Assembly: GCA_018398765.1 (NCBI GenBank)
Contig: JAHBMJ010000731.1
Coordinates: forward strand, 87,957-123,009
Length of the DNA: 35,053 bases
Reading direction: 5' to 3'
Source of the DNA: Chromera velia
Taxonomy: Eukaryota > Sar > Chromeraceae
The position numbers and the translations under genes are program-made. The notes beneath the pieces are model-generated. The model had not been told where the DNA came from and searched no databases. It saw nothing but the letters and a program-made list of their open reading frames with translations. Shown piece by piece: positions 6,147 through 35,053 of this stretch (the first letter of the stretch is position 1; every line of letters begins with the position of its first letter).

Positions 6147-7657
6147 CAAAATATAAAAAATGGTGCATATCAAAAGCAGATTAAATCAACGTTTTTAATT
6201 ATTTATGGCGCTTTTGCAGACCAGAAAATTTGAAAAGAATTGCCAGGTGGACCCTGCATATGATGATGTTTAGCTCTAGGTTTAGCTTAAAAGTTAAGTA
6301 AGTGATAAGTGATTTATTGGTGCCCTAGGACACTGTTGCCGTTCTATTTAAATTTTTAGAGGTCGCCCCCGGCCCCCCGCAACTAGCCCCGCAAACGACA
6401 TGGTGAGTCATCTGATTAACCCGGCATGTTATACAGAAAATCGTTTCCTCAACTTATAGGGGCCATGATGGGGTATTTGAAGAATCACCACGGTCACTGC
6501 GGTCAAACATGATGAACCAGTTAGCAGCTTTTGTTTGATAAGATGCTTTCTATCATGTCATCATATGAAGAAGCTACCAGTAAAAGCAGACCAAATTTTA
6601 AAACTTAATGATGATGTTACTTAATTGTAAGTTAGTAAGTTTAGCTTCCAGTCAGAGCTCATTCATCATCATTCCTTATTTAATCATGATTTAACTTAAT
6701 AGCTTGTAAGTTAGTAAGTCAATCTAGAAGTCAATCCCAGGACTTTTGTAACTCAATCACTACCTACAAGCGGAGAGTGACCGGGGTGATATTTGAAGAC
6801 TTATAAGACTAGGCGGCCTCTTTAGTTGAGTTTTAAGCATATACACTAGAAGAAGCAGAGTTTAGAAAAGATATAACCTGCATAATAAAACAACCCTTCC
6901 CCTTATCTTCTTTTTCACGTAAGTAGGATGCCCACTATCGCCCAGCGGCACCATATGAAGATGTTGGTACATGCAGACTCAATGGTAATGTGATAATGAT
7001 GGACTGAAGCTGTTATGGCAATATCTGCCGTTACATGCCAGGGCCGGGGTCCATTACGTGCGGCCTGAGTATGCGTGCATCCATGTATGCGATCCGTCAT
7101 CATGAAAGTAATTGAAATAATAGAATCCGATTCTGGTGAATACAACGCAATTATAGATCTCTATCTTGAAAACAGAACAGACAAACCGAACCATGCATGT
7201 CAGTCTATGCTGTCAGGACGTAGGCTCAGGTAGGACCCAAAGGTAGTTCACACACCATTTGTATACGTGCGGAACCAATATCATAGGCTACATGCATGGG
7301 GGGACGATGCGTCCCCATCCACGAATGTAGCTGCATGATCGATGCGCAAAAAAAAAAGAAAAAAGGGCGCATATCGCGTGCATGCATCTCTTTAGAGTCG
7401 TGCATGCATGCATGCAGTTTAAGGAATTGCATGTACACTCGATCAGTGATCGATCGATGGATGGCCGGACTATTCTCCGATCCTGGGATGAGTTTATTGG
7501 TTCTTCAATTATGGCTTTTGATGTACCTGAAGGAACGCATAGATCCTTAACAAACGACTCCGTGGCGGCAAACTTTCACGTCTCCCATCTCGTTCGCAAA
7601 GCGTTGCTCAGCAACGTAACCCCCGCCGAAGTCAAAAAAGGCCACAGGTTTGTCATT
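6147..7657. other. AT-rich intergenic spacer
   Basis: Contains the 3' end of the aminotransferase transcript and the presumed promoter of the secreted-protein gene. I see no supported gene. Short motifs such as GTAAGTTAGTAAGT recur near 6626 and 6708, and GCATGCATGCATGC runs occur near 7400-7420. The reading frame of the downstream gene stays open upstream of 7658 as far as 7382, but that stretch lacks protein character and is probably 5' UTR. Confidence 0.5.
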
Positions 7658-8227
7658 ATGAAGCTTCTCCAGACGGTGTTCTGTCTTCTTGTAGGCTTCT
7701 TCCACACTTTCTCAGAAGCAAAGAAGGCCGGCAGCTTGGGCTCCCTTGCTGTATTGACGGAAACAATCGAGAAAACCATTGGAACCCGAAGCCGCACCTC
7801 CTTCTTCGAAGACGCACAATCAAATGTGCTTTTGGAAAATGCAGCCAGGGCCGAGAGTGAGTTCACCAAGAAGTTTCCATCGACTTGGAAGGACGTTGAA
7901 CTCTGTGTAAGCAAGTCGGGAAAGGACTCGAAGCTCTTCCAGAAGTGCATCTACTGCTGCGCTCTGAAGGACTTTGAAAAGAAAGATTACTTCTCTGACT
8001 GCCGTCTCTACGAATGCCCTCTCAATTACGCTCTTGCCTGTTGGTTGAAGCAGAACCGATCAAATCACACCTCCTACGCAACAAAGAAGTATCTCGACTC
8101 TGAGCTGAACTCCACACGATGGGAACCAGACTTCGGTTGGACCTGCGCAGCGTCCAGCGAGGTCACCCGCTCAGGATCCTGGAGGTCCGACGGAGTGTGT
8201 CCGGAAAAGTACCCGAAGACTCAATGA
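7658..8227 (+). CDS. Small secreted cysteine-rich protein, unknown function
   Basis: I do not recognise a family. The chosen start (7658) opens a textbook signal peptide, 'MKLLQTVFCLLVGFFHTFSE', followed by a lysine-rich mature chain; the whole protein is 189 aa and intronless. The mature part carries nine cysteines, clustered as 'CVSKSGKDSKLFQKC', 'IYCCALKDF', 'SDCRLYECPL', 'LACWLKQ', 'FGWTC' and 'GVCPEKYPKTQ' at the end. One putative N-glycosylation site (NRSNHTS) is present. An upstream in-frame extension to 7382 is possible but would bury the signal peptide, so I reject it. The pattern suggests an extracellular or endomembrane disulphide-rich protein. It stands alone between AT-rich spacers, with no neighbour hinting at its role. 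An odd number of cysteines leaves one unpaired or used for dimerisation. Confidence 0.7.
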   Translation: MKLLQTVFCLLVGFFHTFSEAKKAGSLGSLAVLTETIEKTIGTRSRTSFFEDAQSNVLLENAARAESEFTKKFPSTWKDVELCVSKSGKDSKLFQKCIYCCALKDFEKKDYFSDCRLYECPLNYALACWLKQNRSNHTSYATKKYLDSELNSTRWEPDFGWTCAASSEVTRSGSWRSDGVCPEKYPKTQ

Positions 8228-12900: not shown

Positions 12901-14959
12901 CAGACAGACAGAGATAAGCATACACAACTGTCCCTGCAGACAGGCCTCTGAATACTGCCCCACACGAGCCCCAGCTACCCACTGACCGACTGACTGACCA
13001 CATCCAGAGCCGGCCCCCCTCTGCCCCCCCCGAGGAATCTCTCCAGCAAACAGGGGAGGCAGGTCTCGTGTGTGGGAAGGAAGTCATCATCGAGGAGAAG
13101 GACCATCTCCCTCTGGAGAGAATTGGCCCACTCACCGGGAAGTGATGATGCATTCTTCTGACCCGTCCCCTCTAACGTTGTCAACCGCGCATTTCCTCTT
13201 GAGCCAAATCTTACGTGGAAGAAGACGGGAAGAGAAGGGTCTAAGTGTGATTCCCCTTCTTCATTTGCACTTTCCGTTGAGATGACTTCGTTTCTGCTTT
13301 CTTCCTTTCTGTCTTCGGCGGCGGGAAAAACTAGTGAAAGCATCAAATTTCGGGAACGAGACAGACCGAAGTCATACGGCACACCGAGGGCGAACATGCT
13401 GATGTCCTCTGAGTGTCTCTTTACTGACACCCAACCATCAGGCCGAGAAGAAGGAAAAGCAAACGGACGATCCACAGTGGCAGAGAGCGAAGGACTGTCG
13501 CCTGCGTATTCCCCCTCTTCATACCCGCCCGCTTCTTTTGATAGAGACCGCACGCTATGCCTCTTTCCCTTTCCCCCATCTTCCTTCTTCTCTGTCTTCT
13601 TCTCTCTTTCACAAGAAAGGAGCACAGGCACATGTGTGTCGATACTCCGCACGCCGAGACGCAGTCTGCAGTCATCGAAAAGTCATCGAAAGAAGCCAAA
13701 AAGGAAGATAAAAGGAGGGGACGAGGGGTCGATGACGCTCGTGGTCGAGTGATAGAGCAAAAACAATTCCATCCTTCAGGAGGATTCTAGACATGACACA
13801 GCCAGAAAGCGCTTGAGCCACAAAGAAAGCTTGCAAAAGGTTCAGATAACATACAGTGACTGCATGTGTGTGTAGAGAGAGAGAGCCGTCCTCACCTTTC
13901 AAGTGCAGCACACCTGCCACCGCTGTGTGAAGCGACGACGACGGCGTCTTCAACTCTGACTGCGACGACCCGAAGAGAGACCGACGCAAAGCTGTGTACT
14001 TTCAAATTCATTTGCTTTTTTTCGGGAAGGGACCAAACGGGGCAGGCACAAGGAGAAGCGGAAGGGGAGTCCCGCATGCTCTCTGAAGACGGAAGAAGAC
14101 AATGAGAACACGAAAAACACGACAAGTCAAACACCGTCCCTCCTTTCAACCCCCCCCCAGCGCACGATGCTCCCGGTTTCCCTCTGCGCGTGTCTACACT
14201 CGTATCTGTGTCTGTGTACGTCTCTGAGACAACAACTGCCCTCGCAGTGGCAGTTTCTGCTGCCCTCCATGCCCCGCCGTTGAGGCTGCCGTATGGCTTT
14301 GGACGCTTGGAATCAGGCAGATCAGGGTAGACCGCGGAGGACAGCACCACCGTTTCTGCCTTTCTACCGATTCCACCAGTCAACCCTTCCTCGCAGCGCA
14401 CACACTCACATACATCTCGCCTACAATCACCAGTTTTGAGCGATTCTCCGCCCTTCTTTGCGCTCTTGCTGTCATCCATCCCATGTGCCGTTGCATTTTT
14501 TGCACCAAAATCAAAAGTTCTGTCTTGACCTCTTCTTTGGCGCACAAGTCGACAAGTCCCTCCAACGTTCAGAGCGGGGACAAAAGGGAAAAAGGTGGAG
14601 TGCGGGTGGAACTCAATCGAACAAAACCCTTTTTCTTCACCTTCTCCTTCTTCTGTGTGCATCTCTTGTGGACTCTCTGTGAGGGTCAGGAGCTGAAACC
14701 GCAAAGAGGAGAAAGCGCCGTCGGCGACCCCCTCAATCCCCCGTGTGCGCTTCTGTTGTCGCTTCTCAACCCCCCCCGCCCTCTCGTCACCCTTCCTCTC
14801 CCCCTTCCGTCCCCCCTCCACATTCCCTTCTGTGTGCCTTCCTAGCACAGGATCTCTTTCTGCATCCTCATCTTCAGGAAGAGAGAGGAAGCGAAGACTG
14901 CGGCCTCCCTTCCTCCTCGGGGGGTCCAGAAGAAGCTGCGAGACGGCTGCGTTCACTTC
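9946..14959 (-). CDS. Two-domain glycosyltransferase: GT12-like (B4GALNT type) fused to GT31-like
   Basis: Exons (minus strand): 14959-13896, 13665-12999, 12354-11792, 11387-10585, then a last exon starting near 10247 (or 10208) and ending with TGA at 9948-9946. Junctions are GT-AG with matching phases; the 10247 start gives 1132 aa. The first exon is low-complexity stem. A GT-A domain follows: 'VVVASHSGGRCAALERL' / 'GVRSIDTHVPVLLS', 'PYDFGLSRSRNLMLS', the metal-binding 'EMVLLLDDDFLPTHE' (DDD at 13083-13091) and 'LGEHERFFWDANEKGL' with 'GFSVGH'. This is the order of beta-1,4-GalNAc transferases. About 75 extra residues separate RNLMLS from DDD. After the splice 'SLLN/SALPPGVSAVVSLHD' comes a GT31-like domain: 'LVVLSSNSARSRKARACIR', 'VDFFLVHSEEDAGAELERE', 'LWTLVVSDDALVHSEKFL' (SDD at 10847-10855) and 'FPWHCKGVASPFFAF'. 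Probably Golgi glycan synthesis; substrates unknown. The N-terminus and membrane anchor are uncertain: the first exon begins at a repeated splice acceptor and may belong to the upstream gene. Confidence 0.7.
12733..12815. repeat. Intronic CA / CAGA microsatellite
   Basis: Interrupted CA and CAGACA units inside the 644-bp intron between 12998 and 12355. Cysteine/valine-rich open frames read through it on the minus strand are artefacts. Confidence 0.9.
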
Positions 14960-15344
14960 CTGCATGCACGGTAGACGACAAGAAAAAAGAGAGCGTTCAC
15001 TTCCTGCATGCACGGTAGACGACAAGAAAAAAGAGAGCGTTCACTTCCTGCATGCACGGTAGACGACATGAAAAAAGAGAGCGTTCACTTCCTGCATGCA
15101 CGGTAGACGACAAGAAAAAAGAGAGCGTTCACCTCCTGCATGCACGGTAGACGACAAGAAAAAAGAGAGCGTTCACTTCCTGCATGCACGGTAGACGACA
15201 AGAAAAAAGACAGCGTCCACTTCCTGCATGCACGGTAGACGACATGAAAAAAGAGAGCGTTCACTTCCTGCATGCACGGTAGACGACATGAAAAAAAAGA
15301 GCGTTCACTTCCTGCATGCACCGTAGACGACAAGAAAAAAGAGA
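14949..15344. repeat. Nine tandem copies of a 44-bp unit carrying a 3' splice-acceptor sequence
   Basis: Units begin at 14949, 14993, 15037, 15081, 15125, 15169, 15213, 15257 and 15301: exactly nine with no length drift and few substitutions. On the minus strand each unit reads as a T/C-rich run, then GTGCATGCAG, then GAAGTGAACGC, i.e. polypyrimidine tract plus CAG acceptor plus the first bases of the glycosyltransferase exon at 14959. Each unit also holds an ATG inside the acceptor (gcATGCAG). Because 44 is not a multiple of three, acceptors in successive units enter different frames; the two units nearest the exon keep the frame open, while unit three would meet a stop quickly. Confidence 0.95.
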
Positions 15345-15364
15345 GCTAAACACGATAAGAATTA

Positions 15365-18300
15365 TCAAGGTGGGGGATCATAGAGCATCCAACCAAAAGA
15401 TTCGACACCATCCATGGGGGTCCACCCGAGAGACCGACCCATGCCTTCCTTCTCTGTCCCTCCATGCAGCACAGAGCTAGCGGACTCTTTCGGACTTGTT
15501 GAATTCAGGGCAATGACAAAGACAGGACAGGAACAAGGGAAGAGAGGAGAATAACTGGCGCCCATCGATACACGCGCGCAAAGAACGCTATTCTTCAGCA
15601 AATTTTCCATACAGTTCATCCAGATTCAGAAGAACAGTGGGAAGACAGGCAGAGAGAAAGAATCGCAAAGCAAGAGAGAGAACAGACCAACCGAAGGCCG
15701 TCCCGTCAGAGAAAAGAGAAGTCTCTCTGTCCCCTTTCCACTGCGTTCCGGTTCATCCCCTTCCAAAGGACCGTCTCTTTCTGTCTCCCCACCCCTCCCT
15801 TCGCCCTCGCTCTCCCACCCACACGAAGAAGCCCGTACAGATACAAGACCCCATTCGCAGAGAGAGACTGCAGCAGAGGTCGAAAGCAGGCCCCCGATTC
15901 CTGCAATAGAGAGAGCACGGTCGGAGTCGGGGGATACATATGCAAACATTTCCCTGAGTACCAAATTCACAATTCGCAAAAAGAAAGACGCCCCTTGCGG
16001 TGACCGACGCCAACGACAGGGAGGGTATGCATGAATGACGATGACGTGAATGTAGTCATAGATCGATCAGCTCATAGCCAGGCAAAACTTGGATCAGCGA
16101 TTTGAGATACGAGAACAACCGAGTAGAAACGCTCAGAGACAGCGTGCGTGGGGCACCATACGCAGAATAGAGGCAAAACAAGCTTTGAAAAAAAGAAAAG
16201 AATGCAGGAAGGAGCTAGGGAAACACAGAAAGAAAACAGTGCAACAAACAGATGCATGCAGCTGGCAGACGCACCCTCTCTCCGTTGGCACTGCACCTTC
16301 ACGGGTCCGTCGGCAGGTGCCCAAATCTGCACTCATACATTGACTCACTCAGATAGACAGATATTAATAGATAGACAGAAAGACGGGCAGACAGAGCGCA
16401 ATTTTATGCTTCACAGGGGACCTCGAGCCAAGTTCTTGATCTGTCAGCGAGAAGATAGGCAGATTTCTGCGAACTGTCAGAAAGAAAATGCGTCTGTGGG
16501 AAGGAAACAAAGTCGGGGAAGAATTGTGTGAAACGGGAACGAGAGACGCCGTATTCGGTCATGATGAACAGAGAGACATTGGAGACGGGAGAACGTCCAG
16601 CCAGCCCACAGGGACACATGCAGAAGGCCAGAACAGCTAGAGCAGAACAAAAATGTATTCCTGAAGGGGGCAAACGTCCGCACGACAGGGAGTCAGAGAA
16701 AGACAGCGGAAGGTTAGAAAACGATGTGGACTGATAAGGCGATTGGGGGGGTCGACCATTCTGCGGACATGCGATTGATTTCGTCATACTTCATCTGTCG
16801 TGGGTCTGTCGATCTGTCAGCGAGATTATGGAACCAAACCGAAAAAAAAGGGCAACAGTCATTGTGCATTCAGAGCATTCGGACACTGTCCCACATCTTC
16901 ATCCAGGTTTCTCCTTTCCTTCCTCCCTGACCAACCTGAAAAACGACCCCCCACTCCCTCCCCTCAGCCTCAACAGGTGCAGCCCCAACCGCTCTGAAGA
17001 AACGAAACGCACGTCGCGAGCCTTCCGCCTCTGCTGGCAGGCCCACGGCCTCCGAGGGCGACCTCGGGTAAAGGCTGAAAGAAGAAAAAAGCGCAGGAGA
17101 AATCGAAGAATATCGCAATGACAGCCCTTCCCCTCCCAGACGACGACATTGCATCTTTTTCGTGTCGTCTTCCAAAGTCCGACAACTCAGGTCCTTCCCG
17201 TCTCTCTCTGCATTGTCAGGGTCGTTTGAGGCCATCTCGTTCTGCCCCAGCTCCAGAGAGAACAGACGAAGCGCGAGGCCTACCACACTGCAGGCAGGCA
17301 CGCAGGCAGTATTCAATCAAGTCTTTGAGGGCGAAGAAAACGGGAGCGAGTCTGGCCACCTCCCCAGTCAGAGGGAGGCTAAGCAGTGTGGCCCTCTCAC
17401 TCTATCGTTTTTTGCCCATATGCGTGTGGCGGGGAGGAGAGTGGAGATGACGCGATAAGTAAGGTAGGTGTGTATGTTTGAGTGTGTGTGTGTGTGTGTG
17501 TGTGTACGTGTGTATCCCGTGAGGAAGAGTAAAGACTTGCAAACGCACACAGCGCGACTTTTTTATTCTACCCCAGATTACATCTGCCAGTTCGACCCCC
17601 TGTCTCTATATCCCTTGGCCCCTTCCAATCGAATTTCTCAACTAATCTGACCACACGCAAATCCATTGCTGACAGAGAGATACCTGTTGTATGTCGGCGT
17701 AGGAGTCGCTCCCCGGAGCCACTGACCCTCTCCTCCCCCCTCCCTTTCCTTCCTCGCACTCCCTGCAGCCCCTTCCTGACGCTGACCCACCACGACACCA
17801 GGCACCGTCGCAGGCGACACCGGCAGTGGGAGACGTGAGGGCAGCCAGACACAGGAGGAGAGGACGGAGTCTAGATCGGCAGCTTCGAAGGAAGGACGGG
17901 CCTCGAAAAGTCCGGATGCGCCATGGAACTTCTTTTTCCGGCGCCGCTGTAGACACGGGGAGGAAAGAAGAGAGAAAAGGTGAACGTGACCATAAAATCG
18001 AACCTCACAGGAAAATGCGGGGGGATGACAAATACCTACCAGGTGCAACAACCTCCCATGCGCAACATCAAAATTCACAATACCCTCAATCGACGTTTCC
18101 ATTGAAAAGAACTGTGGACACACCGGGAAAGCACTATGAAAAGCCCCTCCAAACAAAAAAAGCTTTCGATCCATGTGCTGAGAATTTTTTCATCAAAAAT
18201 GATTGTCCAAGCACAACGCAAGAGAAGACTCAAACCACAAAATATCTATCATGACAGAAACAGAGTGTTCAACGAAGGAGACTCACGTCCACTCCCAATC

Positions 18301-19205: not shown

Positions 19206-21381
19206 CATACACACATACATGCATACACAGAGTACAGGGAAAGAGAGAGGCAGACAGTGAACGAAGTGCCGGGATTTAATAAAGAGCTCCAGGATCGAAG
19301 ATGAAAGAAGGTCAGAAGAAAACGAGAGTATAAAAAGCAAAAGAAGAAAAGGGAAGGGGTGTTCGAGGGTTCTGTTCACCAAAGAGGGTCACCGACCCGC
19401 CCAACCGACCTACAGACAGACAGACACAGACAGACAGACAGACACAGACAGACAGACACAGACAGACAGACAGACTATGTGTTTCTTCTTCTTCTCCCTC
19501 CTTTTCTTCATGAACACAACAGACAGACTATATGTTTCTTCTTCTTCTCCCTCCTTTTCTTCATGAACACAACAGACAGACTATATGTTTCTTCTTCTTC
19601 TCCCTCCATTTCTTCATGAACACAACAGACAGACTATATGTTTCTTCTTCTTCTCCCTCCTTTTCTTCATGAACACAATAGACTGACTGACAGACAGACT
19701 GTAGACTGACTCACTCTTTTGAAGAGACCCCATCGAGAAGTCTCATCAGTCAAGCCGAACGAGGGCGGAAGGGAAAAGGGAGACGGAGGAGGAGAAGTTT
19801 TCCCTTCTGGTTTTCCAACCCGAACCTCCTCTTCCTTTTCCAGGGAAGAGACAGAGTTCGTCCGCAATTTTCTGCCTTTCTCAAGTCGGCACTCAAACAG
19901 CAGGACGTCAAGCCGAAAGTCTGAAGCATCTTTTTGATCCGGTAACCTTTTTTCGTTCCCCCGTCCCTCATCTTGCTCTTCTTCTTTCAGAACTCTCTCC
20001 GCTTGTGATGCCTGTCGGGAACTTCTCCTCACAAGCAGGGGGTTTCCTGAAGAACGAACGGTGGACGCAAAGTCAGGCGAGGTCGTGTCAGAAACATTGG
20101 CATCTGTTAAATGAATTTAGAGAGGCGACGCATGATAGCTGGCTGCATGGCGTGGTGTATCTGTTGCTTAGCTGAGTAAAAAAAAAACCAACGGCGGTGC
20201 AAACAGGCCGCGAATGGTGAATTGCTACCTTTTCGAAGGAGCCAGATTTTGCATGAGCGTCTGAGTGCTGCAAATTGACAACCTTGCAGCTTTACACACG
20301 CACTCACTTACTTGCAGTTGCGAACACGTCAATGCGGTTGAGGAAAAGGCCGAGGGGGCGCATGCAGACACCTGCGTGAGCGACGGATGGATGGATCAAC
20401 GGACTGAGGGGTACTTGCAGGACGAATGCATGCAAGAAACTTCGAAATGGATACAATTGACCCCACCGACAAGTGCCAGGAAGAGAAGTGGGAGAAGTAC
20501 ACTAGTCTATTGATCGCTTCGCGAGTGAGAAGAGAAGAAACTGAGTGAAACGGCAGAGCCGTGAGGGGAAGACGGTGGATCGAAGGAAAGCGAGAGAGGG
20601 GACGTACAGAAAAAAGGGGAGATATTAATAGAAGAGAGCGAAATCTGGATTGCCGCAAACGGGAACGTCACCGACCTCCTTCCCTCAGCACAAAGTCCAA
20701 GCAGACAACATCCAGTGCGTACTGAACTTTCCCCTCTCTCAGCAGATTCAACACGGCGCCTCCACTTTGGAGGCCCTCGTGCAACAGAAGCTCTATTGAG
20801 GTGACCAGAACCAAACAATAACCGTGGTCGCTGTACCTTTCTTCAAGTTCACTCTTCTCTTCATTCTTCTGTCTTTCTCTGTTGGCTGTTCCTTCTCCTT
20901 CCCCCGCGTTGAGGACAATGACGACCACGCGGCTCTCAGGATGGTGCCAGAATATGCTGTCCAGAGATGCTATTGCTCCCTCAGTCAAGGAATGCTCACC
21001 CCCCCCGTCACTGTAACCCTCCACAAGTAAAAAGAAGGTCAGCCTCCGAGGGACTGTCTCCGTCTCTGCCCCTCCCTTTCCAGAAGAAGACACTCGAATG
21101 GAAGGGCGAGTAAGGATTTTGTCTCGCACACAGACAGGTAAAATCGGAGAAGGCCTCTCGCATCCCGCAGCGATCTGCCCACCTTTGCACCCTTCTCCAG
21201 TGTCCCCGGAGCCCCTCTGTACCCTGTCGTCTTCTGGATCCCTTCGCCCCTTCTCCCCAACCTCGACACTTGACCACTCGACGGACGCTTTTGAATGTTG
21301 GTGGACACAGCATCGAGATGCCGAGGACCGGTCGAGGAGGGAGCCAAGCAACGAGAACAGAAAAAGAAAGATCGTGGCCAT
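15365..21381 (-). CDS. GT32 / alpha-1,4-galactosyltransferase-like type II membrane protein; 3' half of model tentative
   Basis: Start ATG at 21381 opens a short signal anchor, 'MATIFLFLFSLLGSLL'. Model exons (minus): 21381-20676, 20371-20312, 20103-19715, 19020-18759, 18384-18287, 18111-18040, 17946-17684, 17287-16936, 16326-16275, 15953-15823, 15592-15365. Phases agree and the sum is 2613 nt (870 aa). Exons 1-6 resemble A4GALT/GT32: 'RLTFFLLVEGYSD', 'HHPESRVVVIVLN', 'YALDVVCLDFVLREGG', 'LPLVLARTHSPLGQRAFEL', 'TPLGRFCSAVWEKG' and 'EQIVLLPPWTVASHVW'. Where the family has GG-Y-L-D-x-D, this model reads GG-V-C-M-R-P-L, so the metal-binding DXD motif is missing unless a small exon was overlooked. 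Exons 8-11 rest on splice signals and frame alone ('GVVFQ/IWAPADGPVKVQC', 'LSANGVLYLYGLLR'); the gene could instead end at TGA 17638 or continue into the glycosyltransferase exon at 14959. Expected in the Golgi. Confidence 0.55.
17482..17505. repeat. (GT)12 microsatellite
   Basis: Twelve GT dinucleotides, probably within an intron of the minus-strand glycosyltransferase gene. Confidence 0.95.
19145..19202. repeat. (CT)n-(AC)n compound microsatellite
   Basis: CT run at about 19145-19160 followed by about 19 AC units, in the intron between 19714 and 19021. Confidence 0.95.
19412..19475. repeat. CAGA/CACAGA microsatellite
   Basis: Interrupted CAGA units within the same intron, running directly into the 53-bp tandem repeat. 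Confidence 0.9.
19473..19684. repeat. Four tandem copies of a 53-bp intronic unit
   Basis: Units start at 19473, 19526, 19579 and 19632 and are nearly identical: GACTATATG, a TTTCTTCTTCTTCTCCCTCC run, TTCATGAACACAA and CAGACA. The last copy fades into GACTGACTGACAGACAGACT. The array lies just downstream, on the minus strand, of the donor at 19714. Confidence 0.95.
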
Positions 21382-21765: not shown

Positions 21766-22110
21766 AACCCGAAAATCCCGAAAATCCAAAAACCTGAAAA
21801 TCCGGAACAATCCCGAAAATCCAAAAACCCGAAAATCCCGAAAATCCAAAAACCCGAAAATCCCGAACAATCTAGAACATGCAATCCCGAAAATCCAAAA
21901 AAGTTCCCGAAAAACCCGAAAAATCCCGAAAATCCCAAGTCCCGAAAATCCCGAAAATTCAAAAACCTGAAAAACCCGAAAATCCCGAAAAATCTCAAAA
22001 CCCAAAAATCCCGAGAATCCAAAATCCCGAAATTTCATTCAAAAACCCGAAAATCCCCAACAATCCAGAAAACCCAAAAACTACTAAAAACCCGAAACTC
22101 CCAAAAATCC
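21766..22110. repeat. Degenerate satellite-like array of CCCGAAAATCC / AAAACCCG units
   Basis: About 345 bp built almost entirely from short units such as CCCGAAAATC, CCGAAAATCCAAAAA and CCCGAACAATC, with a loose 9-11 bp period and occasional longer interruptions. It is strongly strand-asymmetric (purine plus C runs on plus). Phe/Gly-rich open frames on the minus strand and Pro/Lys/Ser-rich frames on the plus strand are by-products of the repeat. Confidence 0.85.
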
Positions 22111-22132
22111 ATGCTGTCTGAAGTTAGAAAAA

Positions 22133-22534: not shown

Positions 22535-22623
22535 AGCATTGAAAAATCCATTTACATGAACAAATGAAGGACGCCTTTTGCTAGGCCTTTTGCTCCCTCC
22601 TTTAAGGCCTCCGTCACTACTAT

Positions 22624-23007
22624 ATGACAAGAGAGCCGACGTTTGGGCAGCTTGGGCTGTCTACCACAACCCGTCTGGTCGAAGAGAGACAAAAACGCCC
22701 CGATTTTCTTGTGCGGCTCCCATCCGGAGACACAGTGCTCGCCGACGTTGCTGTCACCCATCTGTTTTCCATCAATGCTAACCGCCTGCGCCGATTTGCA
22801 AAAACAGCAGGGTCAGCAGCGAGGGGAATGGAGAAAATGAAGAACGATAGGTATGGGGAGATCTGCCATGAAATCAGTTTTCGTTTTGTGCCGCTTGTTT
22901 TTAAAACTTATGGAAGACCAGGCGGGGGAGTAGTAAGGTTTTTGAAAGAAGTGGCAAAGTTAGGGGCAGGGAGGGTGAGGGGTGGGGAGGGAGACGAAGC
23001 AGTCTAA
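22624..23007 (+). pseudogene. C-terminal fragment of a non-LTR retrotransposon (restriction-like endonuclease motif)
   Basis: 127 codons open from 22624 to the stop at 23007. The core 'KRPDFLVRLPSGDTVLADVAV' region (22711-22775) has the RPD...(x)n...DVAV spacing of restriction-like endonuclease domains that follow reverse transcriptase in R2-type and related protist elements. The following 'MEKMKNDRYGEI' and 'FRFVPLVFKTYGRPGGGVV' match the Lys-Tyr and F-x-P-x-x-x-E/K-x-x-G pattern often seen at the ends of such proteins. No reverse transcriptase is visible upstream, so this is a 5'-truncated or decayed copy, typical of target-primed insertions. The ATG at 22624 is probably only the first in-frame Met, not a true start. 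The assignment rests on motif shape alone. Confidence 0.5.
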
Positions 23008-26067: not shown

Positions 26068-27154
26068 ATGAGCAAAGGACAGTTTCGAAGGTTTCAAGCT
26101 GGACTGCACCGCCATCTGTAAGGGTGACCCCGCTTTCAAGAAGCTGAGCAAGGATGAGCAGCTGTCAAAAGTTGCGACAGCCTTCTTCCGATCAGCAAAG
26201 GGGCATCCAGACTGCGGAGAGCAGGTGATCTCCTTGTTCAAGAAGATAGATGCTCCTGAGTTCTCCAATGGGAACACCTCCGCCCTAGACACGAACTATG
26301 ATAAGTTCTATACGACCATGTGGGAGACTATCAGGATCCCGCTAGAAAAGAAGGACAGAGAGAAGAAAGAGGCAGTGAAGGCAGAGTACACGGAGTTCTC
26401 GAAGTCGCTCGTGTTTGACCGTATTTCCAAGTGAACTGTGAAGTGGGGGTTGATAGAGCAAAGGGCAGCCGAAGTGGGGGTAACGATCATAGATAAAGAC
26501 AAGGCCACGCACCTTCTGAAGTCCATCTCCCGGCACTCGCCGTCCCTTCACGCCATTTTGAAGGTGACGATGGATGCAGCCGACCAAGAGGATCCGAAAA
26601 AGATCCTTGACAAACTGAAAGGCCTTCAAAAAATGTGGGAGGGAGATTCGTAGTCTTTGGTCGGTGATGCTCTCGGTAGGGGAGGTGGCAGTGCCTTACC
26701 TACACATTGTCAAAGAGCAGCTAAGGGTCCAAAGGTAAAGGAAGAGTTTGCCAGTCTCGTTTCTGTCGTGCAGCAGACGGTGCAAGAGCAGCTCCATCTC
26801 GTAGGTTTCGTTGGCCCTGGAAATGTTCCTGCCCGGTCTTTAAACGGAAAGGGGGGAAAGGGGCAAAGTAGAGGAAGGAACCAAGGTGGAAGAGGGGGCT
26901 CTAGCGGTGCAGAGGGTGCACAGGGAGGTCCTCCCAATCACGGAGGAGGTTTCTGCGATGTTTGTCCCAGATGTGCACGCCCTGGTGGTTACGATACGGG
27001 CTTCCCATGCTCTGTACTCAGACGCACCTGTGGCTATAAACCCTGCGGTAGAAAGGGGCACGATGCAGTCGCATGCAGGATGAGAAAGAGGGATGAAAAA
27101 AACAAGCAGCCAGGGAAGAGCGGACCGAGAGGGCCCCAAGGGTATGCAGGCTAG
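26068..27154 (+). pseudogene. copia gag remnant with zinc knuckles
   Basis: The ATG at 26068 is out of frame with the rest by one base (frameshift near 26076-26083). Downstream frame: 'FEGFKLDCTAICKGDPAF', 'KFYTTMWETIRIPLEKKD', 'HLLKSISRHSPSLHAILK'. This is an alpha-helical capsid-like protein followed by a Gly/Arg-rich stretch and two Cys clusters near 26950-27090. The first cluster ('CPRCARPGGYDTGFPC') has Gly where the zinc-binding His is expected. The second ('CGYKPCGRKGHDAVAC') keeps C, C, H, C with a four-residue first gap. In-frame stops occur at 26432, 26651 and 27152. Confidence 0.75.
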
Positions 27155-28890
27155 GTTGGAGGGGGACAGGAGTCATCCGAGCAAAGAATCCGTGTGCGTG
27201 ACAGGATCACGGTCATGGACATGGCGTTTCTCTCTGTCGGTGCATGCATAAGACAGATGAAACGTCCATCTCCTCCGATCGACAAGTTTGTGGCCGATAC
27301 AGGTGCTACAGACAACATAGGCTCCACCTGCGTGTTCAGACAGTACATGATTATACATAAGCCGTCCACCCAAGATTTCGGACAGGCCCATGGAGATGCC
27401 CCTGCTGTGCAAACTGAAATGGAGTGTATAGTTGCCCTCCCAGTGACACTTCTGGAGGGGGAGCCAGACAACTGGCAGCAACGCACAGACGAGCCATTCG
27501 TGATCCGCATGTGGCTGTCTGAAGATGACTCTGTCCATTCCCTTCTGTCCTCCGAAGTGATGAACAACGACAAAGCCGATACAGTCAACTCCCACTGCGT
27601 GTTTGAGGACATATGGGGGAGAAGGAAGAAAGTCAAAATTGACTACCCCAGAGGAGATGACAGATTCGCTGTTCCCATGGTGCAGTTGCACCCCAAACGA
27701 TTTCAGTATTTGGAGTTGGGAGGGGCGCATGGACTGGCAGCAGCCGTGTCTGCAAGCAGACACAGCCAGCGACTGAAGGAAGCCGACGAGGAGACGTGCA
27801 TGACTTAGCATAGAAAACTTATGCACCAAGGTAAGGAGAGGTTAGAAAAGACCCTAAAAGAAGAAGGTCTTCGCATGAGTCATGCAGCGTGGCAAAAAGT
27901 GTATGCTGACTGTCGTGTCTGTAAAAGGAGAAATGCAATCTTTCCGTCTCTCCATGCAGTTCCCGACTGCTGATCACGAGTCACTCAATTCGGACAGGTT
28001 GTCTACCTGGACCACTGGTTCATTAATGACAGTGGTGGCGTGGGAGGGAGGGGTGAGTACACAGTCTCCTTCATGCTCGACTACTACAACGGCAAATGGG
28101 ACATGATGGCAGACGCCAACCGCAAGGTGGAAGGCGACCTGGGCGCACACCTGTTCAGATGGAAGGCACGCTACGGCAGCTTTCCCGAGTCCATTGAAGC
28201 AGACAAGACGCAGGAGCTGTGGGCAGTGGGGAGGAAATGGCATATGCCATGGTGCCAGCGCCACCGTACTGTTATGGTCCATATAGGGCGATTGACACCG
28301 CCACCTGCACAGCTCGAGTTCTAGTGCAGACTGTATTAGAAGAGCTGAACCTGCCGAAGGTCTTGTACAAGCATGTGCTCGACGGCATTTGTGAGACCTA
28401 GAATAAGACCTACAACAAACAGATTGGCATGACTCCTATAGAGAAATATTTGGGCTTCCTATCCGTGCGGACATTCATGTTTAGAGATCAGGTTGTGGTG
28501 AAAATGAATGAGAAGAGCCTGGAGCTGGCAAGGGTGGAGGTCACGTATCTCCACAAAGAAAATTCTCATCTTGCCACTGTTCTCCGCAGAGCACCCGTCT
28601 TGGACAAGGGCACAGAGACCCATACTGTGCTCGAAGTCCACCCAGCATGGCTGAAGCCGGTCAAGCGAGGCCTGAACAACTCATGGCTGGGGTGCCGACA
28701 AAAGTGGGAGGTTCTAGAGGCTCGTCACTGGTCGGACATCCAAGCACAGAAGCAGCAGCAGGCACCACCCGTGCTCCACAGTCCGTCCCTGTCCCTTGTA
28801 TCCATGTTTTCAATTCCTTCTCAGTCCAGACCGCAAGAGGTCGGGGGTGCCGCCGCGCATGGCCCGGGTGTTGCGGGGTTGGAAGTCTGA
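27155..28890 (+). pseudogene. copia protease and integrase remnant
   Basis: Same frame as gag. The aspartic protease signature 'FVADTGATDNIG' (DTG from 27296) is intact. After a TAG at 27806 comes the integrase zinc-binding region: 'HRKLMHQGKERLEKTL', then 'YADCRVCKRR'. The integrase core follows: 'VVYLDHWFINDSGG', 'FMLDYYNGKWDMM' and 'SIEADKTQELW'. Near 28216 the frame shifts by one; the new frame reads 'TCTARVLVQTVLEELNLP' and 'YNKQIGMTPIEKYLG', the C-terminal integrase part. The catalytic glutamate, expected before 'RAIDTATC', is not evident. Stops at 27971, 28399 and 28888 break it further. Confidence 0.75.
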
Positions 28891-30165
28891 GGAAGGGTTG
28901 AGGGAGATGACAATGGAGAAGGGGTGAAGGCGCGAAAGTACAGCGGTATCTGGGCTCAAACAGGCAGAGGAGGGGCATTGCAGCCTTTCATTGTCCGACA
29001 AAAAAACAGCAGAAGCGTGCAGGTCAATGAATTCGACCAGACGCCAGCTGGAGAAGCTAGAGTTGGGGGTATGCGTCATAACAACATCAACCACCGACTC
29101 GTTGTCTTCTGCTTTCAGTGGTCCGAGGGACAGCCCTTTCCGTCTGCTCCGGAGACGGCTAACGTAGCCGTGCCTCCCGTTGTCTCTCCCGAGGCCGTGC
29201 CTGCGGTCGTCCCTCCATCCACCTCTGCAGACGCGGCTACTCAGCCATCGGGGGTGAATCAAGAAGAAGAAGAGAGGGGGAGAGTGAAGGAGGAACTGTT
29301 TGGAGACAGAGCTTTGGAGATGAAAGCAGAGGAAGGGCAGGTTCAAGAGGAAGGTCACCGTGGTGCCATGCTGATCGCAAAGCAGGGGCAGCCTACCTTG
29401 CCTCAAACGCAATCCAATCGTCCGGCTCCTCCCACAAAGATCCCATATATCCGCGGCATGCTGCAGTGGGACTCTGACGTCCGTAGATACTCAGAGGAAT
29501 TTGGGGGAGACACTCCGTTTCTCGCTCTGGCTAGCTTCCGAAAGGGAGCAACCATACTTCCTACCAGCAGAGAGGAGATCGCAAGAAGAGAATTTTGGGA
29601 GGCTAACGTCAAAGAGTGGGCAGCCATCCTTCACACGAAGATGATCGGAAAGCGCCGCTCACACCTTGAGCTTGCTGCCGTGCTCAACATGGGTTTTACC
29701 AGAAACCATAAAAAAGATTTGAGCAAGGGACCCAGAGGGAGAAAGAAGAAGACGCGCATTTATATCGCAGGGTACGATGACCTGAGGAAGGTGGACACAT
29801 TCAGTGGCACTCCGAACCGCGACTGTTTTCTTCTCACCTTCCTGTATATTGCCACTCGGGGGTTTGAGGTGGAGTTGGTGGATATCAAGAATGCATTCCT
29901 CCAGTCCCCTGACGACCACGTAGAGCACGTAGGGGTGCGCATCCCGAAGAGCATTCCCATCATGCCTGTACAGAAGCCTTCCTTTCTTACTGAGTACAGC
30001 GATGCCAAGTGGGGAGAGATAAGGAAAGAGGCAGAGAGAGTGGTCCCAGGTCAGATCTACGAACTTAGCACTGCCCTCTACGGCACCCCTGCAGCACCCA
30101 CATTTTGGGGGAAGGCGTTACGTTGTGGCTTGTACGGCGACTTGATCACCCGCCAAACTTGCTAG
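28891..30165 (+). pseudogene. copia reverse transcriptase, N-terminal half only
   Basis: About 425 codons remain open up to 30165. After an acidic linker the RT begins around 29690: 'DDLRKVDTFSGTPNRDCFLL', then the diagnostic 'VELVDIKNAFLQSPDDHVE' and 'QIYELSTALYGTPAAP'. The palm motif YVDD, thumb and RNase H are absent because the sequence changes to the gypsy element's putative LTR. The region before RT is Pro/Glu/Gln-rich and poorly conserved, as is usual in copia linkers. Confidence 0.8.
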
Positions 30166-30496: not shown

Positions 30497-32574
30497 GTTT
30501 GAAGTGCGGGCAGGATAGACCCGTCTACTATCACTCCTGAGGTCATTCAGCAGCTCATTCAAACTTAACAGCAGCAGCAAGCTGAGATCCAGGCACTGCA
30601 GGTCCAAAACGGGCAGTTAACCCAACAGAATCAACAGCTGCACCAAGAGCTGATCAACCATCAGCAGACAGTCGTTACAGTACAACAAGGCACCGCGGGG
30701 AACAGCCCCCCAGCGGCTGTGAAGTCAAATTTGAAACCCAAAGAGCCGTTCACGTACGCAGGCAGCCGCAAACAACTCCCAGATTGGCTCTGTACGACCG
30801 AGAGATGGCTTCGCTTGTCGCGAGCGTCGGAAGCCGAGAAATGCGAAGCAGCATGTCAGTACCTATCCTGTCCCCTGCAGAGGTGGTATGAGCTTGAAAA
30901 CCTCCGAACGCCGTTCCAGGGGTGGGAGAATTTCAAAGAGAGGATTGGGAAGAAGTTCAAAGACCCAAATGCTCAGACACGTTTGTGAAAGGAAGTCTGA
31001 GCAATGAAATGTGGGAACAAGACAGTATAGAAGTACACCGATGACTTCATAGAGAAGGCCATGCAGATTGAGGATATCATAGAAGCCGACCTACTGCACG
31101 ACTACCTCAGGAGATTGCCAACTGACATTCGTCTCGCTGTGAAGCGTCGGGGAGTCATGGGACTTGAGGCCGTCATAACAGTGGCGGACGAGGAAGACCA
31201 ATTGATCAGAGGCAAGCGCGCGGATGGGGGCGGGCATGCGGTGCAACAGCGCAACACGGATGGGCCTGCACCGATGGAAATAGATAGATTGTCGCGCTTA
31301 TACGCGCTGTCGCACGAGCAGGTGCAGAGGCACATCAGAGAAGACAGATGTTTCAACTGCCACCAACAGGGCCACCGGGCGAACAGGTGCCCAAAGTCCA
31401 ACAACCGTCTTCTCCCCCAGCAGCACCGAAACTTCCCATACCAGTCATTTCAGCAGCAACAACAGCAGCATCGGAATGCCCCTCCCCGTCCTGACAATCG
31501 GAATTTCAGGCACATGGGAGTCAGCAACCCTCTCATGCAACTTCAGGGTCCGGTGGTGCCCTCAGGCCTCGCACCTTCACCCATGCAGCACCAGCAGATG
31601 TGGCAGCCTGCCGCACGCCCAGTCACTGACTTCCCGCCGGGGTTGTGGGGCTTGCAACAGCAGAATCAAAATGCAAGCATGCGGAACGGCTACCCATTTC
31701 GCAGATACTACTCCACGAAGACCTCCTGCGCACCGGGGAAGCTCATCCGCTTCCACGGTCGGTTAGCAGGGGTCCCTGTTCACTGTCTGTACGATCCTGG
31801 GGCAGATTCGAACTTCCTTGCCCATTCCGTTGCCGAGTCGAACCGCTTCACTCTCTGGGATCTCGATGAACCGACCGCATGCAAGGGTGGGTTGAACGGA
31901 GGACCGCAACTTCCGATTTCCCAGGAGGTCAAAGGCCTTCCCCTCTGTATCCAGGGCTTCAGCGCGCCTCTGGATCTCACAGTAGTCGATCTGGATGATG
32001 ATTACAATGTTGTGTTGGGGATGCCTTTCTGTGAGGAGTATATTCCTATCCCACATTACCGTGAGAAGGCCCTCACGATCCCCGCATGTGAGTCGCCGAC
32101 TGGGAGAGACTTGCTCCTGCTTGACAGCAAGGAGTACCCGGCGGAAGGGGAGGGGGAGGACTTCTTTAGCCAGAGAGAGCTCCGTCGGCTGATGAAGAGA
32201 CCCAGTTCCCGTGTGCATCTATTCCGCCTCGAAGCAGTGCGGAAGGGGGGGGTGAGTGATACGTTGGGGGTGCATTCCCTGCAGTCTGCCGGTAAGCCCG
32301 GAGACCCACCGCCCCTTTCATCTTTCCCTCCTGACCATCCGATCAATTCTTCGACCTACACGGGATTCCAAAAGCACCTCCAGAGCAAAGAAGTCCCACC
32401 CAGCATCCGACCGGTTCTCGAGAAACATTTTGATCGATTCCTAGACGAGCTCCCGGGTCTCCCGCCCCACCGAAAGATTGAGTGTGAGATCAAGCTCGAG
32501 GCAGGGCACTCTCCTCCTGCGAGAGCACCCTACCGACTGTCATACGGTCAGCTTGACGAGCTGAGACGGCAGTG
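30497..32574 (+). pseudogene. gypsy gag and protease, with in-frame stops
   Basis: The frame can be followed from about 30497, where ATA-GAC may be a mutated start codon, through a Gln-rich coiled-coil segment ('IQALQVQNGQLTQQNQQLHQ') and the capsid region ('FTYAGSRKQLPDWL', 'KYTDDFIEKAMQIEDI'). A perfect CX2CX4HX4C knuckle, 'CFNCHQQGHRANRC', lies at 31349-31390, followed by a Gln/Pro-rich linker. The protease motif is 'CLYDPGADSNFLA' (31784-31822): the usual D-S/T-G is D-P-G, probably inactivating. Stops: 30566, 30986, 30998 and 31028. The frame runs on to the start of RT ('DELPGLPPHRKIECEI') and is lost at about 32573, where one base seems missing. Confidence 0.85.
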
Positions 32575-35053
32575 GACTCATACCTAGAGAAAGGGCACAT
32601 CCGCCCTTCGACAAGTCTATACGCTGCGCCAGTCCTGTTTGTGCAAAAGGCAGACGGGACGCAACAGATGTGCATCGACTTCACGGGACTCAACAAGATC
32701 ACAGTCCGCGACAAATTCCCCATTCCTCACCCAGAGGAGCTGCTGAGTCGCCTCCATGGTGCGAAATTTTTCTTGTCTCTAGACTTACGGCAATACTTCC
32801 ATCAGACAAGGATCAGGGAGGGAGATGAGGAGAAGACGGCATTCGTCACAAGGTACGGCAGTTTTGAATGGCTGGTAATGCCGTTTGGCTTGTGTAACAC
32901 ACCTTCCATCAGCATGCGTCTCATCACGGATGTGCTCAAACCACTCCTTGACAAGTGTGTTGTTGTGTTTATTGATGATGTTCTTGTTTTCAGCCGCACT
33001 CCGGAGGAGCATATCGAACACATCAACCAAGTCCTTTCCCTTTTGAGGGAACACCAGCTCTACGTCAAGGTCTCTAAATGCGTATGGCTTCGGACAGAGG
33101 CGAAATTTTTGGGGTTGGTGGTTGATGAGGAGGAGGTCAGACCAAGCTATGAGAAAATGCAAGGGCTCACTGAGTTCGCACAACCCACAGACCGCACTTC
33201 CCTGCGCCAGTTTCTGGGACTGGCCAATTGGTTCCGCCGGTTTATCCCAAGGTTCTCGTTTCTTGCGGGGCCTCTCACATTCCTCCTCCAAGGGAACGTC
33301 CTTTTCGAATGGAAGACTGCACAGTCGCGTGCGTTTGCTGAGCTGAAGCAGGTAGTACAGGAGCATGCCACCCTTGCCCTCCCCGATTCCAGCAAGCCAG
33401 TCATTCTGATGCCCGACGCATCGCAGTCTGCAGGAGCCATTGGGGCTGTCGCCCTCCAGAAGGACTGTGCAACCGGGAGGTACCGCCCCCTCGCTTTCGG
33501 CTCCCGCCGTCTGACATCTACGGAAGCCAAGTACCCCGTCCGAGAGTTAGAATTTCTAGCGATTGTGCATTTCGCAAAGGTGTGGAGACACTTCCTGTCT
33601 TCAGACTCCGAAATATGGACCGATCACCAGAGCTTCACAAATTTCAGCCACCGATCGTTCGAATTTTGCTCCCTGCGAGTCCGACGCTGGATTGAGTTCA
33701 TGCAGGAGCTCAGCATCACTCCAAAGTATATCCCAGGGAGAGCAAACATTGTGGCAGACGCCCTTTCCCGAAACCCTCCCGCCGCACAGCAGCTCATGCC
33801 GTCTTCTGCCGAGGTTTCTCACATGGGTCGCGCTCAGCGTCTGCCTGTACGTCCCAGGCCCCTGCCGGAGGCTGTTCCGGTGTCTGTCCAGCCCATTGGG
33901 TCTTTGGGGGCAGAGTACGCTGAGCTGCCCGATTTGGTTCCTGAGATTGAGGAGAACCAGACTCCAGTTAGGGAGGGAGATGGGCAGCAGTCTCGGGTGG
34001 GGATGGAGTTGCAGAGTTTGACGGTCTCCGCCACACAGTCACAGGCATTCCTTGATGCCTGCAGGAGAGGATACTCAGCCGATCCCTTCTTCCACCCTGT
34101 CCTTCAGCATCTGTCACAGCAGCACCCACCCGCCCCCACCCCTGATTTTGCCCTTCGTTTGCGAGGCATGTCGCTTGGTGCCGGTCTCCTGTATTTTGAG
34201 GGGAATCGTCTCTGTGTCCCTAGATCTCAGCAGGGGACTGTGATGGCTGGGGTGCACTCCCCTCTGCACGCTGCTCACTTTGGGACGGGGAAGACCTATC
34301 GGAAGGTGGCGTCATTGTACTACTGGCCCAAGATGTGGAGGTCAGTCGCTTCTTTTGTTCGCGCGTACGATCGGTGTCAGAGAAGCAAAGGTCCCACTGC
34401 GGCCCGCCCCGGGCTCCTGCAGCCCCTCCCTATCCCTTCACGCCCTTGGGAGTCGACTTGCATTGACCGCCTTACTGACTTACCGCCTTCCGGTGATGAG
34501 GGGTTTGATGCGATTCTTGTGGTGCTTTGCCGGCTCATTAAAGCAGTCGTCTTGATTCCAAGTCACAGCACAGCAGGAGCAGAGGCGACCACACGGATCT
34601 ACCGCCAGCACGTTTTGTGCAAGAAGGGCTTCCAGCGTCATATTGTCTGCGACCGTGACCCCCGTTTTGTCGCCCGCTTTTGGCAGACCCTCCACGCCTC
34701 CAGCGGTTCAGAAGTCGATTTCGCGACTGCATCGCACCACGATACAGCGGGTGCCGCAGAGAGGATGAATCGCACCCTCAAGGAGGCTTTGCGGTGTCTG
34801 GTAGACACGAAACACTCCCGGTGGTCTGAATTTCTATGTGATGTGGAGTTTGCATACAACTCCTCTGTCCATGAGGGGACTGGTTTTGCGCCCCTCGCTC
34901 TCGATGGTGGGAAGTCCCCGCTCATCCCTCCTGCTCTCAATCTCCCAGTCTCAGTCGAACCTTCTTTCGACGCAAAGGAATTTCTGGAGGAGCACAACCA
35001 GATGATCGCTGCAGCGAGAGATTCACTCCGCTCAGCCCAACAAGTCATGACCC
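32575..35053 (+). CDS. gypsy pol: reverse transcriptase - RNase H - integrase, 3' partial
   Basis: 826 codons without a stop, open at the window edge. RT: 'YLEKGHIRPSTSLYAAPVLF', 'LDLRQYFHQTRI' (usually LDLRSGYHQI), 'MPFGLCNTPSISMRL' and the catalytic 'VVVFIDDVLVFS' (FIDD rather than YIDD). RNase H: 'MPDASQSAGAIGAV', 'ELEFLAIVHFAKVWRHFL', 'WTDHQSFTNF' and 'GRANIVADALSR'. The integrase zinc domain is 'HSPLHAAHFGTGKT' with 'RAYDRCQRSK', so the first Cys of the CxxC pair is Tyr. The core keeps D (TCIDRL), D (VCDRDPRFVARFW) and E (GAAERMNRTL). It needs fusion with the upstream frame to be expressed; no start of its own is evident. A long intact pol beside a broken gag suggests selection ended recently or that the copy depended on other elements. 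Confidence 0.92.

Follow-up and report, generated by a model that had tools for sequence, protein, structure and literature searches.

A nine-copy 44-bp tandem repeat beside a probable minus-strand exon of Chromera velia: a minisatellite with acceptor-like cores and a palindromic octamer in every unit

Introduction

The window analyzed here, a stretch of 35,053 nucleotides from Chromera velia (contig JAHBMJ010000731.1, forward-strand positions 87,957 to 123,009; coordinates below are those of the window), contains nine head-to-tail 44-bp units at 14949–15344. Read on the minus strand, each unit consists of a pyrimidine run, GTGCATGCAG, and then GAAGTGAACGC or a near variant of it. A sequence-only reading of this DNA described the array as a 3' splice acceptor multiplied nine times in front of an exon, with copy number as a possible switch of productive splicing, and offered repeated start sites as an alternative. 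The question is whether the copies serve as acceptors, as start sites or as regulatory sites, or whether the array is a minisatellite that lies beside an exon.

Results

Tandem Repeats Finder reported the array at 14949–15346 with a period of 44, 9.0 copies, 96% matches, 0% indels, and a score of 740. Counting of complete 44-bp units gave nine, from 14949 to 15344. These results bear out the description of nine near-identical units carrying a pyrimidine tract and a common core. With 9.0 copies of 44 bp and 96% matches, the array is a minisatellite in the usual sense of head-to-tail units of about 10–100 bp with high identity. The minus-strand sequence TGCATGCAG occurs in all nine units and at a total of 11 sites across the window, against 0.26 expected per window. 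Six of the 44 columns vary among the units, for a total of eight variant cells, three of which correspond to a single change common to units 3, 7, and 8. A T-to-A change inside the pyrimidine run is present in three of the nine units. No partial copy of the unit was detected elsewhere in the window, where the best ungapped 44-mer had 17 mismatches to the 44-base consensus, and exact searches with a 29-base core in the genome_contigs and viral_contigs collections (bacteria, archaea, and viruses) returned no match. The RNA of the array was not predicted to fold better than shuffled sequences (z of -0.47). The window contains two further repeats, an array of 4.2 copies of 53 bp at 19466–19688 and an irregular CCCGAAAAT-type array at 21766–22111.

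The GC content of the window ranges from 0.39 to 0.57 per kb. The plus strand carries a branched-chain aminotransferase gene, the first exon of which matches 7lv7 (E of 1.1e-12), the further exons being placed by eye, and the minus strand carries a triose-phosphate-transporter-type exon (Pfam E of 4.8e-17). Pieces of a Ty3-type LTR retrotransposon occupy the right end of the window (30569–35052, plus strand). They include RVT_1 (E of 3.4e-31), RNase H, and an integrase zinc domain, together with a CCHC knuckle and a protease that score below the curated cut-offs; the last frame runs off the end of the window. Frames at 26654–30165 (plus strand) look copia-like by eye, e.g. VELVDIKNAFLQ, and may belong to a second element; Pfam matched neither of the two frames tested in this region (27155–27805 and 28891–30162) at E 0.01. 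A 298-codon frame at 7331–8224 (plus strand), located in an AT-richer stretch (6–10 kb), contains many cysteines and a stretch that resembles a signal peptide by eye (MKLLQTVFCLLVGFF), and a 133-codon frame at 22606–23007 (plus strand; RPDFLVRLPSGDTVLADVAVTH...) resembles a LINE-type endonuclease, also by eye. Neither frame had a Pfam match. Scans of the window with Rfam, at the gathering threshold, and for tRNAs returned no hit. With its aminotransferase gene, transporter-type exon, and Ty3-type element, the window looks coccidian-like. In comparison, Cystoisospora suis has a GC content of 50.0% and carries ty3-gypsy genes (PMC5354109); it belongs to the 20 out of 64 apicomplexan genomes that gave transposon hits, a set lacking Toxoplasma, Neospora, Hammondia, Besnoitia, and Sarcocystis (PMC9141347).

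On the minus strand, an open frame of 382 codons (15040–13895) spans the first two units of the array and ends at a donor, aag/GTGAGG at 13895, which ranks in the top 0.1% of 800 GT sites. The frame is unusually long, since the run of 355 codons that it contains within 13700–14959 exceeds the longest run in all 1000 shuffled sequences (largest, 297). The surrounding region (10.4–21.6 kb) harbors five stop-to-stop frames of at least 200 amino acids on the minus strand, of which the array-adjoining frame is the largest; 200 shuffles contained 0.3 on average and never more than 2. The plus strand has a single such frame (shuffle mean, 0.46). Codon usage was assessed with two models. The first, built from 533 codons, none of them from this gene, assigned the array-adjoining frame a total of -15.2 bits; of the six longest minus-strand frames at 10.5–21.4 kb, four, this one among them, had totals below zero. 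This model was judged too small and was replaced by a model of 1362 codons, a substitution that favors the exon reading. The larger model was built without the array-adjoining frame, and part of its training codons came from other exons of this predicted gene region. Over the whole length, this frame had no stop and was the best of the six (0.092 bits per codon, against at most 0.028 for the other five); considered slice by slice, it was the best of the six in four of seven slices. The codon evidence is modest, and the combination of an unusual frame length with codon usage under one of the two models suggests that an exon is likely to adjoin the array on the minus strand. The exon that had been proposed directly downstream of the array is thus probable, on the basis of frame length, codon score, and the high-ranking donor.

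The limits of this probable exon depend on the parse. If the whole region is treated as one gene, the predicted exon extends from 14871 to 13896 (minus strand), behind the acceptor ...cttcctgaag/ATGAG. It would start at 14959 if unit 1 of the array provided the acceptor, and at 14965 if the ATG of unit 1 were the start codon. The preceding predicted exon (15688–15900, minus strand) follows the acceptor ctctattgcag and has a weak coding signal. Its 3' end is uncertain: it may be at 15688 or at 15793 if the segment is spliced on, or the segment may close a separate gene as its final exon, with a stop near 15706.

Database searches assigned no family to the minus-strand gene region. Pfam matched neither its single open frames (up to E 1) nor the joined product with X between the pieces (up to E 10), and the only match to seven short pieces, at the same limit of E 10, was a linker family below its cut-off (E of 0.048). 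Two pieces of the gene were searched against PDB sequences; one had no match, and the other had one match at E 0.85. The AlphaFold model of the piece at 11.4–10.6 kb had a mean pLDDT of 41.7. Some pieces of the gene look glycosyltransferase-like, by eye only (LLLDDDFLP, VVSDDALV).

With the reading frame fixed to that of the downstream open frame, units 1 and 2 meet no stop codon, and units 3 to 9 each meet one to three. The earlier statement that only the two units nearest the exon remain open was therefore right, with the qualification that these two units require different phases (0 and 2). The presence of an ATG in each unit was also confirmed, the array containing 12 minus-strand ATGs. 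The notion of repeated start sites holds for one of them, the ATG of unit 1, which opens a frame of 357 codons and serves, at normal coding weight, as a start in the two-gene parse described below, but not for the other 11, which open 18 to 62 codons.

The strength of the unit as a splice acceptor was estimated with generic splice matrices, typed from general knowledge. The CAG sites of eight of the nine units scored 2.02 bits (top 8.5%), and that of the ninth scored 0.72 bits (top 13.3%), the ranks being taken among 753 minus-strand AG sites at 10.3–21.6 kb. This middling strength results from the purine-containing GTGCATG, which parts the pyrimidine run from the AG. Of 4864 AG sites outside the array, counted on the two strands of the window, 342 scored at least 2.02 bits. 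Among 20000 random 44-mers drawn from positions 1–22000 and treated as tandem arrays, 18% reached this score when only the minus strand was considered and 35% when either strand was allowed, indicating that an acceptor-like core is ordinary for a 44-bp repeat in this DNA. Seven acceptors of the aminotransferase gene, placed by eye from homology, ranked between the top 0.5% and the top 37% in an earlier version of the score, in which the array units ranked at 7.6% and 12.3%. A middling score is thus no bar to use as an acceptor. One of these seven acceptors also ends in ATTCATGCAG. The acceptor at 14871, which has an A at position -3, scores above the array units.

A search for a branch point revealed that exact CTRAY and YTRAY are absent from the unit. 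These motifs are present in 10% and 20% of random 48-mers, respectively. The absence of YTRAY says little, since this motif is also missing nearby in four of the seven homology-placed aminotransferase acceptors and at 14871, and since the branch consensus described for T. gondii is weak (ctrayk in 17.75% of introns; PMC2483917).

A dynamic-programming parse of the region as one gene yielded 14 minus-strand segments, the last of which is a 4-base stub, and placed the array in the intron between the segments 15900–15688 and 14871–13896. The parse was repeated with a single acceptor offered at a time in 14300–15700. The highest score was obtained with 14871 (232.4), followed by unit 1 (14959; 229.6), 14935 (224.1), unit 2 (15003; 222.8), 14915 (222.6), 14692 (215.5), and 14676 (211.9). 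Units 3 to 9 and position 15345 gave 208.0, none of them being used. The margin of 14871 over unit 1 was 2.8 bits, or 4.5 bits at double coding weight. At that weight, 14871 and unit 1 still came first and second, and both 14935 and 14915 then outscored unit 2. The forced-acceptor parses led us to reject units 3 to 9 as acceptors and to keep 14871 and 14959. The idea of a multiplied acceptor consequently survives for unit 1, a credible acceptor (TGCATGCAG at 14960–14968, minus strand; first exon base, 14959; candidate start codon, 14965), but not for units 3 to 9, which are closed.

The same region was also parsed as two genes. The first gene then ends at the stop near 15706 and the second starts below 15346, which leaves about 740 bp of spacer, containing the array, upstream of the second gene. 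The summed score of two genes was 236.1, against 232.4 for one gene (515.8 against 510.1 at double weight), the costs of starts, stops, and spacers in this comparison being arbitrary. Under the normal coding weight, the start chosen for the second gene is the ATG of unit 1 (14965; score of 139.6). At double weight, this start scored 293.5, against 293.8 for a start within unit 7 joined by splicing to 14871. Since two genes score slightly above one, an intronic position of the array is not established, and, with arbitrary costs, so small a gap decides neither for an intron nor for a spacer.

Each unit contains one copy of the palindromic octamer TGCATGCA, giving nine copies spaced by 44 bp at 14961–15320. 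The window contains 18 copies in all, nine of them outside the array, against 0.71 expected. The octamer is held by only 0.8% of random 44-mers, and its presence in every copy is the more unusual feature of the array. Its invariance over the nine units was not significant (P of 0.28). Four octamer sites, some of them overlapping, are clustered at 7379–7416, at the start of the cysteine-containing 298-codon frame. The octamer has been described in Apicomplexa: C. parvum, T. gondii, and E. tenella have an excess of TGCATGCA in their non-coding DNA (PMC2688925), and it is also reported as the motif of PF14_0633 (PMC2965767). A cell- and life-cycle motif located upstream of genes in T. gondii reads TGCATGC (PMC4035076).

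Discussion

We favor, with moderate confidence, the interpretation of the array as a mostly passive minisatellite that borders a probable minus-strand exon on its 5' side, either at the end of an intron or in an intergenic spacer. Tandem duplication, by slippage or by unequal exchange, would have built up the array immediately in front of this exon. If intronic, it would be spliced out through the stronger acceptor at 14871 or, at most, through its last unit (14959). If located in a spacer, it would lie between two minus-strand genes, as a leader or a promoter. Unit 1 may be a real acceptor or a real start, and the remaining copies would be acceptor look-alikes devoid of function.

The most interesting alternative is a regulatory array, in which the nine octamers would be putative ApiAP2-type sites forming a promoter or upstream element of the second gene (start at 14965) or an intronic enhancer. 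This role, proposed from the sequence, is possible but somewhat doubtful. Nine octamers in front of a gene would make a natural regulatory array if the repeat lies in a spacer, as in the slightly better-scoring two-gene parse, and the excess of the octamer in the window, its rarity in random 44-mers, and its earlier description as an apicomplexan element (PMC2688925, PMC2965767, PMC4035076) all argue in the same direction. However, a minisatellite multiplies any motif that was present at its start, the lack of octamer variants among the nine units is not significant, and the difference between the parses is too small to decide.

The two-gene arrangement is also the basis of a further explanation, which we regard as unlikely: the array would belong to the transcript of a separate gene downstream, as its 5' leader, with translation starting at the ATG of unit 1 (MQEVNAAVSQ...), and the upstream ATGs would form small uORFs, the number of which would track the copy number. 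The observations that this ATG is the only one to open a long frame, that the two-gene parse selects it at normal coding weight, and that the coding signal of the preceding predicted exon is weak are consistent with such a leader, although translation would be burdened by 11 upstream ATGs and the advantage of two genes is small, with arbitrary costs for starts, stops, and spacers. Competition between nine 3' splice acceptors, with copy number setting the share of productive splicing, appears very improbable. This scheme, read from the sequence, would account for the conservation of the acceptor-like core in nine of nine units and for the second rank of unit 1 in the one-gene parse, and units 3 to 9 would yield unproductive products, as a switch requires. 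In opposition to these features, the acceptor score is an ordinary one, as shown by the random 44-mers; the exact CTRAY and YTRAY motifs are absent from the unit, itself a weak point; the pyrimidine run is interrupted by A in three units; and a better acceptor is available downstream, at 14871. The ordinary score and the stronger acceptor leave the copy-number switch of the sequence-only reading unsupported. The boldest version combines elements of these two explanations into a length-variable rheostat of a single gene, consisting either of a duplicated intron 3' end, in which unit 1, or units 1 and 2, would be productive and the others decoys, or of a uORF number set by the copies; we consider it quite unlikely.

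Comparison with known systems places the array closest to the minisatellites (VNTRs) of introns and spacers, with which it shares head-to-tail near-identical units of tens of bases, sharp edges, a unit length that is not a multiple of three, and a location outside the main coding frame. It differs from them by the acceptor-like core and the TGCATGCA octamer held in the unit. In the promoter of the T. gondii SAG1 gene, 27-bp repeats are found upstream of the gene; both cases involve short tandem repeats near a gene, with different unit lengths, the SAG1 repeats being in the promoter. Tandem alternative 3' splice sites (alternate acceptor events) have been described in T. gondii (PMC3543268) and likewise involve multiple AG acceptors at short distances in front of a single exon, whereas the present array offers nine candidate copies of 44 bp, seven of which lead into stops. 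The TGCATGCA or TRP-2 (YGCATGCR) promoter element, reported as an apicomplexan ApiAP2 motif (PMC2688925, PMC2965767), is present as the exact octamer in each unit, but the promoter position of the array is only a candidate one.

If the copies competed as acceptors or as uORFs, one gene would carry a switch that the length of the minisatellite tunes directly. As an ordinary minisatellite, the array is a warning that acceptor-like cores often arise in repeats of such DNA.
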